A stretch of 64,000 nt of DNA, taken from contig CP091278.1 of NCBI GenBank assembly GCA_021650895.1, positions 2,571,659-2,635,658 on the forward strand, written 5' to 3'. This stretch comes from Candidatus Jettenia sp. (lineage in GTDB: Bacteria; Planctomycetota; Brocadiia; Brocadiales; Brocadiaceae). The notes under the pieces are model-generated. The model saw only the letters and a list, made by a program, of their open reading frames with translations, was not told where the DNA came from and made no database searches. This document shows positions 23,178 to 53,473 of this stretch, piece by piece (position 1 is the first letter of the stretch; each line of letters begins with the position of its first letter). The translations under genes were made by a program, and so were the position numbers.

Positions 23178-24926
23178 ATGTATAACTTTTTAAAAGTAAC
23201 GTTAGTGTCAGCATTAATAGGTTGCGGGGCGATGGGAGCCGCATCCAGTCTCATGCTGAAAGAAGCAAAGGCAGTAGAAATTATTACCCACTGGGTACCT
23301 CATGAAGTATATGGACAGATCGGTGAACCGGATAACAACGGTAAGGTGTTCTTCTCTGGTTTAGGTGCAAAATATATGGGATATCCAAAACATGAGAATC
23401 CACCACCCTATCCTGGCAAATACAGCAAATTCTGGAGAACCTTGCCAGCATACCGTTACTATATCCCTGACTTTATGTACAACAGGGATGAAGTAAGACC
23501 TTCAAACCCGATAAAGGGTACCTTCCAACTCGAGCAGTGTATTGCGTGTCACTCAGTTATGACTCCCGGTATCGTAAGGGATTATAAGAAGAGTGCTCAC
23601 TCCAGGGCAGAACCAAACCCAACAGGCTGTGATACCTGTCATGGTAATAACCATCAGAAGCTTACCATGCCATCATCAAAGGCTTGTGGTACCAGTGAAT
23701 GCCATGAGACCCAATATAGCGAACAGGGTCAGGGCGGTATCGGTTCGCATGCATCATGTTCAAGCTTTGCTCAGATTGAATGTGCATGGTCAATTGAAAG
23801 ACCACCAGGCGACACTGCCGGTTGCACTTTCTGCCATACCAGTTCAGAAGAAAGATGCAGCACATGTCATCAGAGACATCAGTTTGATCCAAAGGTTGCA
23901 AGACGTGCAGAGCAGTGCAAGACATGCCATTGGGGTAAGGATCACAGAGACTGGGAAGCATATGATATTGGTTTGCATGGGGTAGTCTATCAGGTAAACA
24001 AATGGGATCCAAAGCAGTTCGATTGGGATAAGAAGTTGGCCGATGCAGATTATGTTGGTCCGACATGTCAGTATTGCCATATGAGGGGTGGTCATCACAA
24101 CGTACAGAGATTTAGCACCGTATATACCAGTATGGGTATGTCGATGGCTGATCGTGGAGCACCGATATGGAAAGAGAAGAGAGACCGTTGGGCATCGGTG
24201 TGTGACGATTGTCATTCGCCAAGGTTTGCGAAAGAAAACTTGCAAGCGTTGGATGAATCGGTTAAGGATGCTGGTCTGAAGTATCGTGAGACCTTTAAAG
24301 TTGCAGAAGACCTCCTGAAGGATGGAGTAGCTGATCCGATGCCAAAAGATCTTGCACCTGACTGGTCAGGTCAGCATATCTGGAGTTTGAAGATCGGTGC
24401 CTATCATGATGGTCCAGAATATGGTGGCAAGACGGGTGAGTCTGGAGAGTTCAGGATGTCGAACTGTTCAGATATAGAAAGGCTCTGCTTTGAGAGCGTA
24501 GGGTATTTCCAGACGTATATCTATAAGGGTATGGCACATGGTTCATGGAACGATGCGACGTACTCAGATGGTTCATTCGGTATGGATCGTTGGTTAGTGA
24601 ACGTAAAGCAGAATGCTTCTCAGGCAAGGAGACTTGCAGCATTGGAGAAGAAGGTTGGCATCAGTTGGGTTCCGGAGAGTTTCTGGAAGACAGGTGAATG
24701 GCTTGATCAGTTAACGGGTCCGTACATCGTGAAGAATCATCCGGGGAAGACCATCTTCGATCTGTGTCCTGATCCAGGTTGGTTAGATACTCATCATGCA
24801 CCTGCTGAAGAGGTTGAGTATATCAACAGGAAGCTCGATGAACTCGGTATGAAACATTCAGGCGGCGCTCATCACGGTGAAGGTCAAGATGACAGGGGTG
24901 CCAGGTCAATGAAAGAGATGCACTAA
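23178..24926 (+). CDS. hdh: Hydrazine dehydrogenase (octaheme HAO-family cytochrome c)
   Basis: Oxidises hydrazine to N2 in the anammoxosome, yielding four low-potential electrons; the last step of anammox catabolism. 582 residues: signal peptide (~1-32, hydrophobic then ALKEAKA-like cleavage region) and eight c-type heme motifs at residues 121, 151, 170, 216, 227, 247, 297 and 342. Seven are CxxCH; the third is CX4CH (CGTSECH). The fourth should carry the P460 catalytic heme. Tyr462 in NDATYSDGSFGMDRW fits the tyrosine known to cross-link P460 in the neighbouring subunit. The segments CKTCHWG, GQHIWSLKIGAYHDG and the C-terminal PGWLDTHHAPAEEVEYI match the hydrazine-oxidising clade (formerly HZO) rather than the hydroxylamine-oxidising paralogue; this split is from memory of the family. 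AAAGGAG precedes the ATG. A plausible promoter (TTGTTG, 17 bases, TATAAA) lies just upstream. Paralogues are expected elsewhere in the genome. Confidence 0.92.
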   Translation: MYNFLKVTLVSALIGCGAMGAASSLMLKEAKAVEIITHWVPHEVYGQIGEPDNNGKVFFSGLGAKYMGYPKHENPPPYPGKYSKFWRTLPAYRYYIPDFMYNRDEVRPSNPIKGTFQLEQCIACHSVMTPGIVRDYKKSAHSRAEPNPTGCDTCHGNNHQKLTMPSSKACGTSECHETQYSEQGQGGIGSHASCSSFAQIECAWSIERPPGDTAGCTFCHTSSEERCSTCHQRHQFDPKVARRAEQCKTCHWGKDHRDWEAYDIGLHGVVYQVNKWDPKQFDWDKKLADADYVGPTCQYCHMRGGHHNVQRFSTVYTSMGMSMADRGAPIWKEKRDRWASVCDDCHSPRFAKENLQALDESVKDAGLKYRETFKVAEDLLKDGVADPMPKDLAPDWSGQHIWSLKIGAYHDGPEYGGKTGESGEFRMSNCSDIERLCFESVGYFQTYIYKGMAHGSWNDATYSDGSFGMDRWLVNVKQNASQARRLAALEKKVGISWVPESFWKTGEWLDQLTGPYIVKNHPGKTIFDLCPDPGWLDTHHAPAEEVEYINRKLDELGMKHSGGAHHGEGQDDRGARSMKEMH

Positions 24927-26831: not shown

Positions 26832-27617
26832 TTAATTTTTCAACATATGGTATTTGCTTTTAAGCTTTTCACGAGCAGTGTCTTTCGTAAATTTCCAGGT
26901 TACCGTTGTGCATTTTCTATTACGATTTTCAGCCCATGCAAGAACCTCTTTTTCTAAGGTCTCCTTATCGGCAATACGTCGGTCGAGGCATTGCCGAGAA
27001 AGAGCAGAAAACTCTATTTCGGCCATATTCAGCCAACTCCCCTTTTTGGGCGTATAGTGTACCTGAAATTTTTCAGCAAGATCAAAAGCTTCTTCAGGTG
27101 GAAATACTTCATAAAAAGAACCAGGTGTATGGGTATTCAAATTGTCTTGAACAAGACGAATACATTCTACCCCAGGATAATATACCTGAACGAATTGTTT
27201 CACAAATTCGGCATAGTCAACTGCAGTACGCCTTTCTCTTACTTGAACATAACGAAAGCCAGTATGGGGTTCAAAAGCGAGTAAAACACAACAACTACCA
27301 TTGCGCTCGTACTCATAATCTTCCCGTTTGAGTTTTCCCGGCTTCATGGGTATTGGAACAATACTATCACCAAGAAGCTGACACGGCCGTTCATCAAAAC
27401 AGATCAGAGGACGCAAAGGATCATAGGGTTGAGCATACTGATGGAGAACATCTTCCATATGCCAGATATAATCGCCCGTTATTTTCCCTATACACCATCG
27501 CTTCTTCAGCCACGGTTTCAGTTCGTTTTTTTTAAAGCCTTTCTTACACTTTCTAAACAAAGGGATTCTACTACTTTTAACTCTACCAGTTTCTCCCCTA
27601 TTAACTCCAGTGTCCAT
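26832..27617 (-). CDS. IS630 transposase, catalytic DDE frame
   Basis: Encodes the RNase-H-like DDE domain. The part after the frameshift (from NELKPWLKKRWCIGKI) contains the first Asp in PLICFDERPCQLL, the second in IRLVQDNLNTHT and the Glu in KGSWLNMAEIEFSALSRQ, the complete IS630 triad. The residues before the shift are only the out-of-frame reading of the first frame, so the true protein is a fusion of both frames made by -1 ribosomal slippage. The last codons overlap the left terminal repeat. Confidence 0.9.
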   Translation of the reverse strand: MDTGVNRGETGRVKSSRIPLFRKCKKGFKKNELKPWLKKRWCIGKITGDYIWHMEDVLHQYAQPYDPLRPLICFDERPCQLLGDSIVPIPMKPGKLKREDYEYERNGSCCVLLAFEPHTGFRYVQVRERRTAVDYAEFVKQFVQVYYPGVECIRLVQDNLNTHTPGSFYEVFPPEEAFDLAEKFQVHYTPKKGSWLNMAEIEFSALSRQCLDRRIADKETLEKEVLAWAENRNRKCTTVTWKFTKDTAREKLKSKYHMLKN

Positions 27618-28030: not shown

Positions 28031-28430
28031 TTTACAATCTCATGGAATGTATAGGAATCTCAAAACGATTCTATAGTGGCAAGGCGCGCCTTGCCACTAC
28101 ACGTCTTTATGATCTGAAAGTTGCCGAAGACCTAATTAAATATTTAGGAAATTTAAAGTTTTTTATCATGCCGGTAACACACCTCTAACCCAATTGTAGA
28201 GACGCAAGGTGTTGCGTCTCTATTGATATTGAATAGATAAAAATCAAATAGAGAAAATATAAGAAACCATAATCATTGAGTTTTCAGAAAGAACCGTCCA
28301 GTAATATAAGCATTCCAGGAGAAGCGAGCATATGGCAGTATCAGCAAAATTCTTTAGCTCTCTAAAAATTAGTACACCCTAATTTTTATTGAGATGTGGC
28401 ACTCTTTCATGCTTCGTGTACTTCGTATCT
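28031..28430. repeat. Gene-free stretch with composite palindromic repeat
   Basis: No gene is visible. At 28074-28099 lies TAGTGGCAAGGCGCGCC and its inverse; at 28196-28222 a GTAGAGACGCAAGG...GCGTCTCTA palindrome. The sequence between them (CCGAAGACCTAATTAAAT, TTTAGGAAATTTAAAG, CCGGTAACACACC) recurs in the same order at 39900-39995, so the two palindromes and the spacer travel as one composite unit of about 150 bp. Confidence 0.65.
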
Positions 28431-28738
28431 TCTGTGTATGTGTTTGCCTACACAGAGTATGTTTTTGCCAATATACAAGCTATAAAATATATCTATATGC
28501 AGCATAACCACTTAGCTAAGGTATTAATAACTTTTGTATCTATATACATACAGAGAACAAGGTCAGGCTTTACCAATAAAAATAAAATAATGAATATCGA
28601 AGTGTGTGTAACGGCTAGTTATTTATATAGTTATATATTCGCTTTGTTCTGATAAAAAATTTTTATACAAATAACTTCTTTTGTAGGCATGCTGTTTGTG
28701 ATCTACGAGAGGAACTTTATTAAGCGTACTTTTCAATA
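28431..28738 (+). promoter_or_regulatory. Conserved 308-bp leader, copy 1, with sigma54-like element
   Basis: This stretch is homologous over its whole length to 52021-52338. At its left end the palindrome CTGTGTA-N10-TACACAG (28432-28455) is kept while its 10-base core differs between copies. Near the right end GGCATG and TTTGT give GG-N10-GT (28686-28699) inside a fully conserved TAGGCATGCTGTTTGTGAT, which resembles a sigma54 -24/-12 promoter (TGGCAC-N5-TTGC) with GT instead of GC. The predicted start lies ~56 bp before the Wzz/kinase gene. The palindrome about 230 bp upstream would suit an enhancer-binding protein. Inferred; no gene is encoded. Confidence 0.65.
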
Positions 28739-28766: not shown

Positions 28767-30455
28767 ATGAATTCAAACTCTTCTAAAAGTACTCCACGAG
28801 ATTATCTGAGAATTTTATTCAGACACAAGATCGTTATTATCATTACACTCATTGCTATCATGGCGACTACGTATATCGGGCTTGAACTCAAAACCCCGGT
28901 TTACGAGGCGCATGTTAAGATGCTCATTTCCGCACAGAAGCAAATAGATTCACCTTATTACAAGGATTTGAGTAGCGCTTATAGGGATACCAAAATAGCG
29001 CTCACTCAAGCTGAGATTGTAACTTCTACTCATGTATTAGAACGTGCCGTCAAGGCGCTTAAACTCCAGGAGCGTCCATTCGACTATGAAAAGAATTTCT
29101 ATTCTCCGCTAAAAGCACAGTTAACAGATCTTAAAACTAAATGGCTGGCAAATCTAAAAACGATATGGCCTGTAAATTCAGAACCTAAAGAATCAGAACC
29201 CCAAAAAGAATCAGAAACACAGCAAGAACCACAGGATATGGTATCTGAACAAGAACAGGAACAGGAGCAGAAACGAGAGCAAGAATATCGTTTATGGGTA
29301 GCAACAGAAAATCTAAGAAGAGCTATAAATGTTGAGCCTATAAGAGACACTGATTTATTTACAATAACCGTCAATGACTTTAGTCCGGACGAAGCGGCTA
29401 TGATTGCCAACGCGGTAAGTCGTTCGTATATTATTTGCGATCTTGAACAGCAACTTGCAGAACTTCAACTCCAGTATGAAGACAAACATCAGCTTGTATT
29501 ACAATTGAAGGACAATATCGACAAGATGAATGATAATCTTAGCGGTGTGTCACTTTCCTACATTGAATCAATTGGTCCGGCGACAATCAAGATCATTGAG
29601 CAAGCGAAAAAACCGTTTGTACCAATAGGAATTAATAAACATCTTACTCTTACTCTGGCATCCTTTATGGGCATATTTTTAGGTATTATGTTTGCCTTTG
29701 GACTGGACTATGTTGACCATACATTTAAGTCATCGCAAGATGTGGAGTTATTTCTCAACTTGCCATTTTTAGGATCAATCCCGAAGGGAAGGTTAAATGG
29801 AAAGACATTAATTAAGGATATAAATCAGATAAATCCTTATACCCAGTTCTATAAACATCTTGCAGACCAAATATATTTCTCAATGAAAAATAAAAAATTA
29901 AAATCCATTATGATAACTGCTGCTTCACCCTTAGAAGGATCTACAGGCATTACTGCCAATCTTTGCCATTATTTATCAAAAAAAGCAGGTCGTAAGGCAA
30001 TTATTATCGATACTAATTTAAAATCCCCGGCAATACACAAAATCTTTAATATCCCGGAAAATCCCGGTCTTTCGAATGTACTGGAAGGCGAAATTTCATT
30101 TGAAGAAGCGGTTCATAACTTAGGTCATAATTTATCCGTATTGCCTGCTGGTAAAACCTCCCTCGACTCGACATTACTTTTAGATTCTACTTCTATGATT
30201 AATGTAATCAAGGCTGCAAAAGAAAAGTACGAATTCGTCTTTGTTGACTACGCAGACTTAAAAGATTTTCAGGATGCTTACGTACTTTCCTCATATTTAG
30301 ACGGAGTTGTTCTTGTTGTAAATGAGGGTAAAACCCGGCGCCATGCTGTGAAGACGTTAATTGCTCCCTTCGAGGAAGGGAAATCCAATATGATTGGTGT
30401 TATCTTGAACAATCGTACATTTGTGATTCCAAAAATAATTTATAAGAGGATTTAA
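28767..30455 (+). CDS. Wzz/BY-kinase-like polysaccharide co-polymerase
   Basis: 562-residue inner-membrane protein of the Wzc type that sets chain length in Wzy-dependent polysaccharide export. Two membrane helices (near 24-42, IVIIITLIAIMATTYIG; near 296-318, LTLASFMGIFLGIMFAFGLDY) enclose a periplasmic domain. That domain has a low-complexity Glu/Gln/Pro insert near 135-175 and a coiled coil near 225-260. The cytoplasmic part (from ~379) has the tyrosine-kinase fold: AIIIDTNLKSP (A' motif), GLSNVLEG, FVFVDYADL (Walker B). The Walker A region reads ASPLEGSTGITANL where the family has PGEGKST, so the catalytic Lys is missing. The Tyr-rich tail is also absent (ends KIIYKRI). It is probably a structural, non-kinase version. 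First gene of the polysaccharide locus, directly behind the sigma54-like leader. Confidence 0.85.
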   Translation: MNSNSSKSTPRDYLRILFRHKIVIIITLIAIMATTYIGLELKTPVYEAHVKMLISAQKQIDSPYYKDLSSAYRDTKIALTQAEIVTSTHVLERAVKALKLQERPFDYEKNFYSPLKAQLTDLKTKWLANLKTIWPVNSEPKESEPQKESETQQEPQDMVSEQEQEQEQKREQEYRLWVATENLRRAINVEPIRDTDLFTITVNDFSPDEAAMIANAVSRSYIICDLEQQLAELQLQYEDKHQLVLQLKDNIDKMNDNLSGVSLSYIESIGPATIKIIEQAKKPFVPIGINKHLTLTLASFMGIFLGIMFAFGLDYVDHTFKSSQDVELFLNLPFLGSIPKGRLNGKTLIKDINQINPYTQFYKHLADQIYFSMKNKKLKSIMITAASPLEGSTGITANLCHYLSKKAGRKAIIIDTNLKSPAIHKIFNIPENPGLSNVLEGEISFEEAVHNLGHNLSVLPAGKTSLDSTLLLDSTSMINVIKAAKEKYEFVFVDYADLKDFQDAYVLSSYLDGVVLVVNEGKTRRHAVKTLIAPFEEGKSNMIGVILNNRTFVIPKIIYKRI

Positions 30456-51576: not shown

Positions 51577-52020
51577 ATAGAGAAATTGTTGAATCATAGG
51601 GGGCGAACCTTGTGTTCGCCCACCCTTTATATAAATCCAAAATCTGTGTGTTTCTCCATAGCCAGGGCAAACACAAGGTTTTCCCCTACCACGGAGAGAC
51701 GCAAGATTTTGCGTCTCTACCCCTCGCTCAACGTATCGATTCAATCGGTGGAAGATTGAGCCAGCCGTATTATCATGAATTATCTTAACACTGTACTGTT
51801 CGGTTTTATACAGGAGATACTATAATTATAATTGGTTTCACATCTTCAACCCCTTACAAAAGGCAAAAGCCATTTTTTCGAAAAGATGCCATAATTTAGA
51901 GCTGTTCTCAACTTTTTCTTCCAGACCATTTTAATCTTAATTATCCTATTTCCCTTATATTCCGCTACTTAGCATACCTTTGTGTCTTTTTCGAACAATG
52001 TAGTGTAACTCTAGATTTTT
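51577..52020. repeat. Gene-free stretch with hairpins and a MITE remnant
   Basis: No gene is visible. 51599-51626: GGGGGCGAACCTTGTGTTCG followed by CCC, a hairpin repeat. 51693-51720: the GAGAGACGCAAGATTTTGCG palindrome. 51765-51803: read on the minus strand, CAGTACAGTGTTAAGATAAT and TCATGATAATACG are clearly related to the left end of the MITE at 22758 (CTAGTACACTGTCAATATAA, TCATGATAATACG), so this is a solitary, decayed end of the same element family. Confidence 0.6.
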
Positions 52021-52338
52021 TCTGTGTATACATTTACCTACACAGGGTATGTTTTTGCCACTATATAAACCATAACAAATATGTGTATACGGGATAATCA
52101 CTTAGCTATGATACTAGTAAATTTTGTATTCATATACATACAAAAAATAAGATCAGATTTTATCAATAAAAATAAAATTAATGTATACCAAAAGGTGTGT
52201 AACAAGTAGTTATTTAAACAGTTACATGTTTGTTTTATTTCCGATAAAAAATTTTTATACAAGTAGCTCTTTTTATAGGCATGCTGTTTGTGATTTACGT
52301 GCTACCGTATTAGACTTTATTGAGTACGCCTTATAAAT
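52021..52338 (+). promoter_or_regulatory. Conserved 308-bp leader, copy 2, with sigma54-like element
   Basis: Second copy of the region at 28431-28738. Both share CTGTGTA-N10-TACACAG (here 52022-52045), GGTATGTTTTTGCCA, CACTTAGCTA, CATATACATACA, GATCAGATTTTATCAATAAA, GATAAAAAATTTTTATACAA and TAGGCATGCTGTTTGTGAT (52276-52294). The GG-N10-GT of the latter (52278-52291) resembles a sigma54 -24/-12 promoter. The glycosyltransferase ATG at 52388 would be ~85 bp downstream of the transcription start. No ORF is conserved between the copies, so this is a regulatory rather than a coding duplicate. Confidence 0.65.
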
Positions 52339-52387: not shown

Positions 52388-53473
52388 ATGAGAGTCTTAA
52401 TTATTCATCCAGAATTTAAAAATACCGGTGGAGTAGCAGGTTATTATTCAGCGCTCAAGGACAAATTTTGTGTTGAAATTAAACATTTTACTATTGGAAA
52501 AAGGGCAGAAGGGAAAGGAATTTTTATAAATATTTTTAGGATTTTTAAAGATTATCTTCTCTTCATAAGAGAGTTAAAACGTAGTAAGTACGATGTTGTA
52601 CATATAAATCCCTCTTTGGATTTTAAGAGTGTTGTGCGTGATGGGGTTTTTATCTTGTTATCCAAATGTTACAAAATAAAGGTAATAGTGAATTTTCATG
52701 GTTGGTGTAAATCATTTGAACAAAAAATAAACCGGAGTGCTTTATGGTTATTCTTGAATATTTACGGGAAAGCAGATGTATTTATTCTCCTAGCTATGGA
52801 ATTTAGAAACAAACTCCTTGATTGGGGATTTAAGCAACCTGTTTATTTAGAAACAACCGCAGTTGATGACGAGTTAATCAAAGATGTCGACATGCAAACA
52901 ATTATAAGGACGAGGCTGGATAATACTCAATGTAAAGTTCTTTTCCTTTCACGGATTGTAAAAGAAAAAGGTATATATGAAACAGTAGATGCTGTAAATT
53001 TGCTTCATAGGAAATATTCCAATATTGAACTTATTGTTGCCGGAAACGGAGAAGAAATACAACGAGTTAAAGATTATGTGAAAGCAAACGCTATTTCAAA
53101 TGTTTCTTTTACCGGATATGTTAAGGGAGAGTTGAAAAAAAAATCTTTTGAAGGATCTTATATGTATTGTTTTCCCACGTATTACGGGGAAGGAATACCC
53201 ATTTCTGTTCTTGAGGCAATAGCATTTGGTTTACCTGTCATTACAAGACCAGTAGGAGGCATTGCAGATTTTTTTGAACAGGATAATCATGGTTTTATTA
53301 CTGAAAGCAAAGACCCTCGTGTTATTGCAAGTTATATTGAAAAGCTATACCTGGATAAGGAATTATACAAAAAAATTTCCCTCTATAACTACCACTATGC
53401 TACAGAATTATTTTTAGCATCAAAGGTTACAAAAAGATTAGAAAAGATATACAGGGAAGTACTACAGCTTTAA
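52388..53473 (+). CDS. Glycosyltransferase family 4
   Basis: 361 residues, GT-B fold. N-terminal MRVLIIHPEFKNTGGVAGYYSALKDKF with the GGV loop; donor domain with VLFLSRIVKEKGIYETVDAVNLL near residue 181, ELIVAGNGEEIQRVKDYV near 214, and YGEGIPISVLEAIAFGLPVITRPVGGIADFFEQDNHGFI near 266 (E-x7-E region). It opens the second gene set, directly behind the duplicated leader. Adds a hexose to the growing glycan; donor unknown. Confidence 0.88.
   Translation: MRVLIIHPEFKNTGGVAGYYSALKDKFCVEIKHFTIGKRAEGKGIFINIFRIFKDYLLFIRELKRSKYDVVHINPSLDFKSVVRDGVFILLSKCYKIKVIVNFHGWCKSFEQKINRSALWLFLNIYGKADVFILLAMEFRNKLLDWGFKQPVYLETTAVDDELIKDVDMQTIIRTRLDNTQCKVLFLSRIVKEKGIYETVDAVNLLHRKYSNIELIVAGNGEEIQRVKDYVKANAISNVSFTGYVKGELKKKSFEGSYMYCFPTYYGEGIPISVLEAIAFGLPVITRPVGGIADFFEQDNHGFITESKDPRVIASYIEKLYLDKELYKKISLYNYHYATELFLASKVTKRLEKIYREVLQL

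Follow-up and report, generated by a model that had tools for sequence, protein, structure and literature searches.

The nearest published parallel to the locus described here is the PrsR-linked sequence found before PEP-CTERM genes. In the PrsK-PrsR/PEP-CTERM system of Proteobacteria, promoters share an activator motif which is followed, after about 63 nt, by a sigma54 motif (Haft et al. 2006, PMC1569441). A comparable arrangement was encountered in Candidatus Jettenia sp., in a window of 64,000 nucleotides (the whole stretch of DNA analysed, from contig CP091278.1) and in the genome around it. As in the PEP-CTERM/PrsR case, many promoters per genome associate a putative activator motif with a -24(GG)/-12(GC) element, and there is a tie to exopolysaccharide-associated genes and to a candidate response regulator of the REC-AAA-Fis type. 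However, the putative activator dyads of Jettenia are situated about 150-250 bp ahead of the -24 GG instead of about 63 nt, and the genes downstream are not single PEP-CTERM genes (compare PMC1569441). Three candidate enhancer-binding proteins (EBPs) scored 357-363 bits against the PrsR model TIGR02915, below its cut-off of 502.6. Because spacing, regulator and targets differ, the Jettenia module was not classed as a member of the PrsR/PEP-CTERM system. The PEP-CTERM/XrtA system was likewise discarded, the window proteins being far below the XrtA model cut-offs and the three candidate EBPs below that of PrsR.

Desulfovibrio vulgaris offers a second comparison, with its many EBPs, its short dyads upstream of sigma54 promoters and some regulons controlling exopolysaccharide/biofilm or envelope stress. 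Most EBP regulons of this organism comprise one to four operons (PMC4641369), whereas about 23 promoters of near-constant 270-bp layout were found in Jettenia, which is unusual. The exopolysaccharide and envelope theme also matches the view of sigma54 as a controller of the bacterial exterior (Francke et al. 2011, PMC3162934), a text which mentions neither anammox, Kuenenia nor Planctomycetes and describes no such module. The mechanism is thus a known one, that of any sigma54/EBP promoter. No published description of the module or its regulon was found in the literature searched (subscription literature excluded), where the regulon is apparently undescribed.

Members and distribution of the module

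Two non-coding stretches of the window, copies A (28431-28738) and B (52021-52338), had been described in the first-pass annotation as homologous across their full length, about 23 kb apart, and as each preceding polysaccharide genes. Both statements were upheld: the copies align from end to end (80% over query 1-277, E 1.3e-66, blastn), and they precede a Wzz/tyrosine-autokinase gene and a glycosyltransferase gene, respectively. Their features are the following.

28432-28455, + strand: outer palindrome CTGTGTA-N10-TACACAG of copy A, concentric with dyad 0 and lost in the other copies of the family
28436-28451, + strand: dyad 0 of copy A, GTATGTGTTTGCCTAC, proposed activator site, kept in nearly all copies
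28457-28476, + strand: dyad 1 of copy A, GTATGTTTTTGCCAATATAC, 21 bp after dyad 0
28535-28552, + strand: dyad 2 of copy A, TGTATCTATATACATACA
28685-28699, + strand: putative -24/-12 sigma54 element of copy A, AGGCATGCTGTTTGT, with a predicted +1 near 28711
28767-30455, + strand: Wzz/tyrosine-autokinase gene, head of the EPS gene set behind copy A
52022-52045, + strand: outer palindrome of copy B
52026-52041, + strand: dyad 0 of copy B, GTATACATTTACCTAC
52047-52066, + strand: dyad 1 of copy B, GTATGTTTTTGCCACTATAT
52125-52142, + strand: dyad 2 of copy B, TGTATTCATATACATACA
52277-52291, + strand: putative -24/-12 sigma54 element of copy B, AGGCATGCTGTTTGT, with a predicted +1 near 52303
52388-53473, + strand: glycosyltransferase gene, head of the second gene set behind copy B

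The pair also shares, as had been claimed, the exact palindrome listed above and an identical string near the start, TAGGCATGCTGTTTGTGAT, for which no third exact match was found in the whole genome. The palindrome itself behaved similarly: its only exact matches in the 3.82 Mb genome were those of copies A and B, accompanied by one match with one mismatch and seven with two, against four matches at up to two mismatches for the backwards control. It was consequently abandoned as a defining motif. The CTGTGTA/TACACAG arms, confined to the two window copies and their orthologs, can hardly be the recognition element, and the genome search proposed for the palindrome near TAGGCATG-N4-TTGT would yield just the two known copies. 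Conservation of the arms around a drifted core holds for the A/B pair and is reversed in the family at large, whose other copies retain the inner GYATG-N6-CMTAC and lack the outer arms. What had been taken for a drifted core, the 16-bp dyad 0 concentric with the outer palindrome, is therefore the part conserved across the family.

Several other elements were observed in the surroundings of the pair. A short dispersed inverted repeat (GAGACGCAA..TTGCGTCTC) is present in intergenic positions upstream of both copies (window 28200-28230 and 51700-51725), and a DDE_3 transposase gene (26832-27617, - strand) adjoins the EPS locus, with a TrmE/MnmE-like gene on one side and copy A on the other. The window also contains a hydrazine dehydrogenase gene (23178-24926, + strand; NCBIfam hydrazine_HDH, 1237 bits), by which the genome is recognized as that of an anammox organism. 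In genome G002, two contigs (C2 and C3) both carry the EPS region and its copies A and B, probably as a result of assembly overlap.

Beyond the pair, blastn detected two more copies in the genome, a third at 73% and an incomplete fourth at 71%, and each of the four has an ortholog in a sister species. A first profile (R1), based on sequence only and trained on these four copies and their orthologs, retrieved 15 copies of nearly full length in the genome. Two other Jettenia species each have a similar number, a genome from another genus (G005) has several, and two further genomes have a single one apiece. A second profile (R2), trained on 22 copies, retrieved 23 copies in the 3.82 Mb genome with E values of about 1e-6 or better, eight of which were outside the training set. 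Copy number was similar in the two other Jettenia species, reached 10-12 in one genome from a sister genus (G005) and four in G012, and was down to one or two in several further genera of this family; no convincing copy was found by R2 in other families of the order. With a profile built from the same alignment, real copies scored 18-171 bits, and Markov shuffling of the same 232 kb, repeated ten times, gave no more than 8.8 bits. Scanning of a genome collection with a rare DNA pattern recovered a genuine orthologous copy D in Ca. Jettenia ecosi, from which the genus was taken to be Jettenia; a further match in a Helicobacteraceae contig, situated within a coding ORF that directly precedes ribosomal protein genes, was rejected as a chance occurrence. 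The module is thus real, beyond chance and larger than the two copies first noticed. Copies A and B are best read as two of about 23 copies of a putative sigma54 promoter-plus-enhancer module of some 270 bases, and these promoters apparently form one regulon, which the word 'small' in the first-pass annotation does not fit.

Dyads, spacing and the -24/-12 element

The layout common to the copies consists of three dyads followed by a -24/-12 element at the gene-proximal end. Dyad 0 has the family sequence GYATGYAATTACCTAC and dyad 1 the family sequence GTATGTTTTTACAAACATAY; of the 25 aligned copies, 24 have dyad 1 beginning 21 bp past dyad 0. Dyad 2 (TGTATG-N6-CATACA) lies about 76 bp past dyad 1. 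Half-sites of all three are of the GTATG/CATAC type (GYATG/CATAC). These common half-sites, repeated upstream with a 21-bp phasing, are what is expected from the upstream activating sequence of an EBP. The distance from the start of dyad 1 to the -24/-12 element is about 222-235 bp in most copies, with exceptions of 215 bp in two copies of another genus and of 207-241 bp in a few divergent ones. In copy X it amounts to 313 bp for a usual 229, the additional 84 bp or so between enhancer and promoter being close to eight helical turns.

Most copies carry the canonical sigma54 element TTGGCAAGCATRTTGC, with the GG-N10-GC core (TGGCA-N7-TTGC); the window copies display GG-N10-GT. Profile R1 had been trained only on AGGCATG..TTTGT copies, and most of the further copies carry canonical TGGCA-N7-TTGC at the matching place. 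Since R1 knew the variant class only, this canonical motif constitutes independent support for the sigma54 reading. Genome-wide, TTGGCANRN4TTGC gave 19 matches (six for the backwards control), 11 of them at the gene-proximal end of a module. Further TTGGCAAGYATRTTGC sites were seen outside full modules (G000:C1:1067068, 2308336, 2310192 and 2331930), which may be partial modules or other sigma54 promoters. The genome encodes RpoN, as judged from one Sigma54_DBD match (E 7.6e-60) with an intact RpoN box (ARRTVTKYRR), together with 22 full-length EBPs. The earlier proposal of a -24/-12 sigma54 element with upstream activator sites, common to several units, is therefore well founded in the canonical motif of the other copies, in RpoN and in the 22 EBPs, and it is very probable that the module is a sigma54 enhancer-promoter module.

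From this arrangement, we infer a conventional path of protein binding and activation. RNA polymerase containing RpoN would occupy the -24/-12 element at the gene-proximal end, and an EBP would bind the three palindromic sites through their GTATG/CATAC half-sites. The first two sites would be 21 bp, or two helical turns, apart and about 225-250 bp upstream of the -24 GG, with the third about 75 bp nearer to the promoter. The bound EBP oligomer would then loop back, and ATP hydrolysis would open the promoter. In the window, the -24/-12 reading places the predicted +1 positions about 12 bp past the -12 element, so that nearly the whole conserved stretch would be upstream DNA and not transcript, which would make the original designation 'leader' a misnomer.

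Genes behind the module

Genes located behind copies other than A and B belonged to varied categories.

Copies C and N: operons of DUF883-like glycine-zipper membrane (envelope) proteins
Copy D: SRPBCC protein
Copy F: methyltransferase
Copy H: MscL
Copy K: Fe/Mn superoxide dismutase with a TAT-type signal
Copy M: polysaccharide deacetylase
Copy Q: PAS-GGDEF diguanylate cyclase
Copy S: NosD-like beta-helix protein
Copies G, N, P and T, and counterparts in other genera: small exported-looking proteins starting with MLKKFG or MLKKLG

The association of the module with a small exported protein of the MLKKFG type recurs in six genera. For copies I, L, O and V, the nearest convincing gene is several hundred bases downstream. 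The idea of a regulon dedicated to surface glycans held for copies A and B, which stand before polysaccharide genes, but not for the whole list, which also includes MscL, superoxide dismutase, DUF883-like, GGDEF and small exported proteins. The list as a whole fits the published theme of sigma54 and the bacterial exterior (PMC3162934). A single regulon would thereby join exopolysaccharide synthesis, envelope, osmotic and oxidative stress, c-di-GMP signalling and small exported proteins.

Small, exported-looking repeat proteins of the GHLIQL/TEE type were also seen behind modules in two anammox genera (L173, L186 and L177). An odd member of the regulon, behind a module in two genera (L124:4417-5700, - strand, and L185, + strand), is a gene whose start is of helix-turn-helix, transposase-like type (MIKLTGKEQEKIF..).

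Candidate activators and alternative readings

The likeliest EBPs for these sites would be those of a REC-PAS-AAA+-Fis family, of which every Jettenia genome has four members and G005 three, other genomes usually having one. Growth of this family coincides with the module-rich genomes (Jettenia and G005), and two members are found in one cluster with an HD-GYP-like protein and with copy Q and its PAS-GGDEF gene. The helix SRRTIYRKIH is common to the three members whose DNA-binding domain was read in this genome, a helix which is frequent among EBPs. Named NCBIfam equivalog cut-offs were reached by none of the three candidate EBPs scanned. On the grounds of co-expansion and linkage, the four-paralog family is the best candidate regulator, with a roughly even chance of being the right one.

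It is also quite conceivable, at slightly less than even chances, that the sigma54 regulon is real and that its dyads are bound by another of the 22 EBPs. Eighteen further EBPs are encoded in the genome, and most g11 genomes possess one REC-PAS-AAA-Fis EBP and show no clear module. In G012 and G003, modules are present and no homolog of the candidate EBPs was found at E 1e-100, which suggests that another EBP may serve there. The joint expansion of paralogs and modules in Jettenia and G005, and the linkage of two paralogs to a module-driven GGDEF gene, speak in favour of the REC-PAS-AAA-Fis family instead.

One member of this family, located 0.6 kb behind copy R (L169:2060-3778, + strand), has GAFTDA for GAFTGA in all three Jettenia species. 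Judging from this substitution, the paralog has perhaps lost sigma54 activation, and it may modulate its paralogs. The gap between module R and this gene (L169:1700-1860, + strand; also L188 and L190) contains a decayed small-protein frame, in which a TEEKKEEKKEDGHLIQ-type repeat occurs, and a hairpin that would form a strong terminator (-23.5 kcal/mol over 70 nt). Autoregulation through copy R was therefore downgraded as doubtful, given GAFTDA and the terminator and decayed gene intervening between module and EBP.

Another question concerns the promoters of the window pair themselves. Nine or ten copies, both window copies included, carry a variant element, AGGCATRYTRTTTGT, which keeps GG-N10-G with a T at -12; in the window copies, a weaker GT stands in place of the -12 GC, and the -24 GG is preceded by A instead of T. 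These departures could mean that the AGGCATGYTGTTTGT element is not a working sigma54 promoter, being decayed or read by another sigma factor. This appears improbable: the element is strictly conserved in four paralogous copies, in their orthologs and in another genus, and variation would be expected of a decayed site.

More than 20 copies per genome, in numbers very different between genera, could also evoke a dispersed mobile or repetitive MITE-like element lying between genes by chance. Such an origin is very unlikely, since the copies are old (mostly well under 80% alike) and occupy orthologous places in sister species, face the gene that follows, and have in common short blocks at set distances, not their full sequence or terminal repeats; a MITE would also not be expected to carry a canonical sigma54 site at one end. 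Less credible still is a structured RNA transcribed from the stretch, either a leader or a small RNA of riboswitch-like or attenuator type, an idea suggested by a long non-coding stretch conserved before many genes and called a leader, because Rfam gave no match even at a permissive threshold, the consensus fold of 22 copies reached just -2.5 kcal/mol over 302 columns, and the conserved blocks are DNA dyads with a canonical sigma54 element at the downstream end.

If the sigma54 module is retained, a broader scenario can be sketched, although we consider it rather unlikely in its entirety. The whole 270-bp module would have been copied as a unit before new genes in Jettenia, and the activators would have expanded to four paralogs, including the one in which the loop that contacts sigma54 is altered (GAFTDA). 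The outcome would be a layered global stress and matrix regulon of anammox bacteria: paralogous EBPs would compete for the three-dyad enhancer or occupy it in mixture, and the promoters would fall into two subclasses, TGGCA..TTGC and AGGCAT..TTTGT.

Anammox bacteria are difficult to manipulate genetically, and no regulator of anammox exopolysaccharide or granule formation was described in the literature searched. The promoter list obtained here also provides a short list of candidate activators for the control of the anammox matrix. About 23 promoters with a precisely defined enhancer would tie matrix synthesis to osmotic and oxidative defence and to c-di-GMP signalling.
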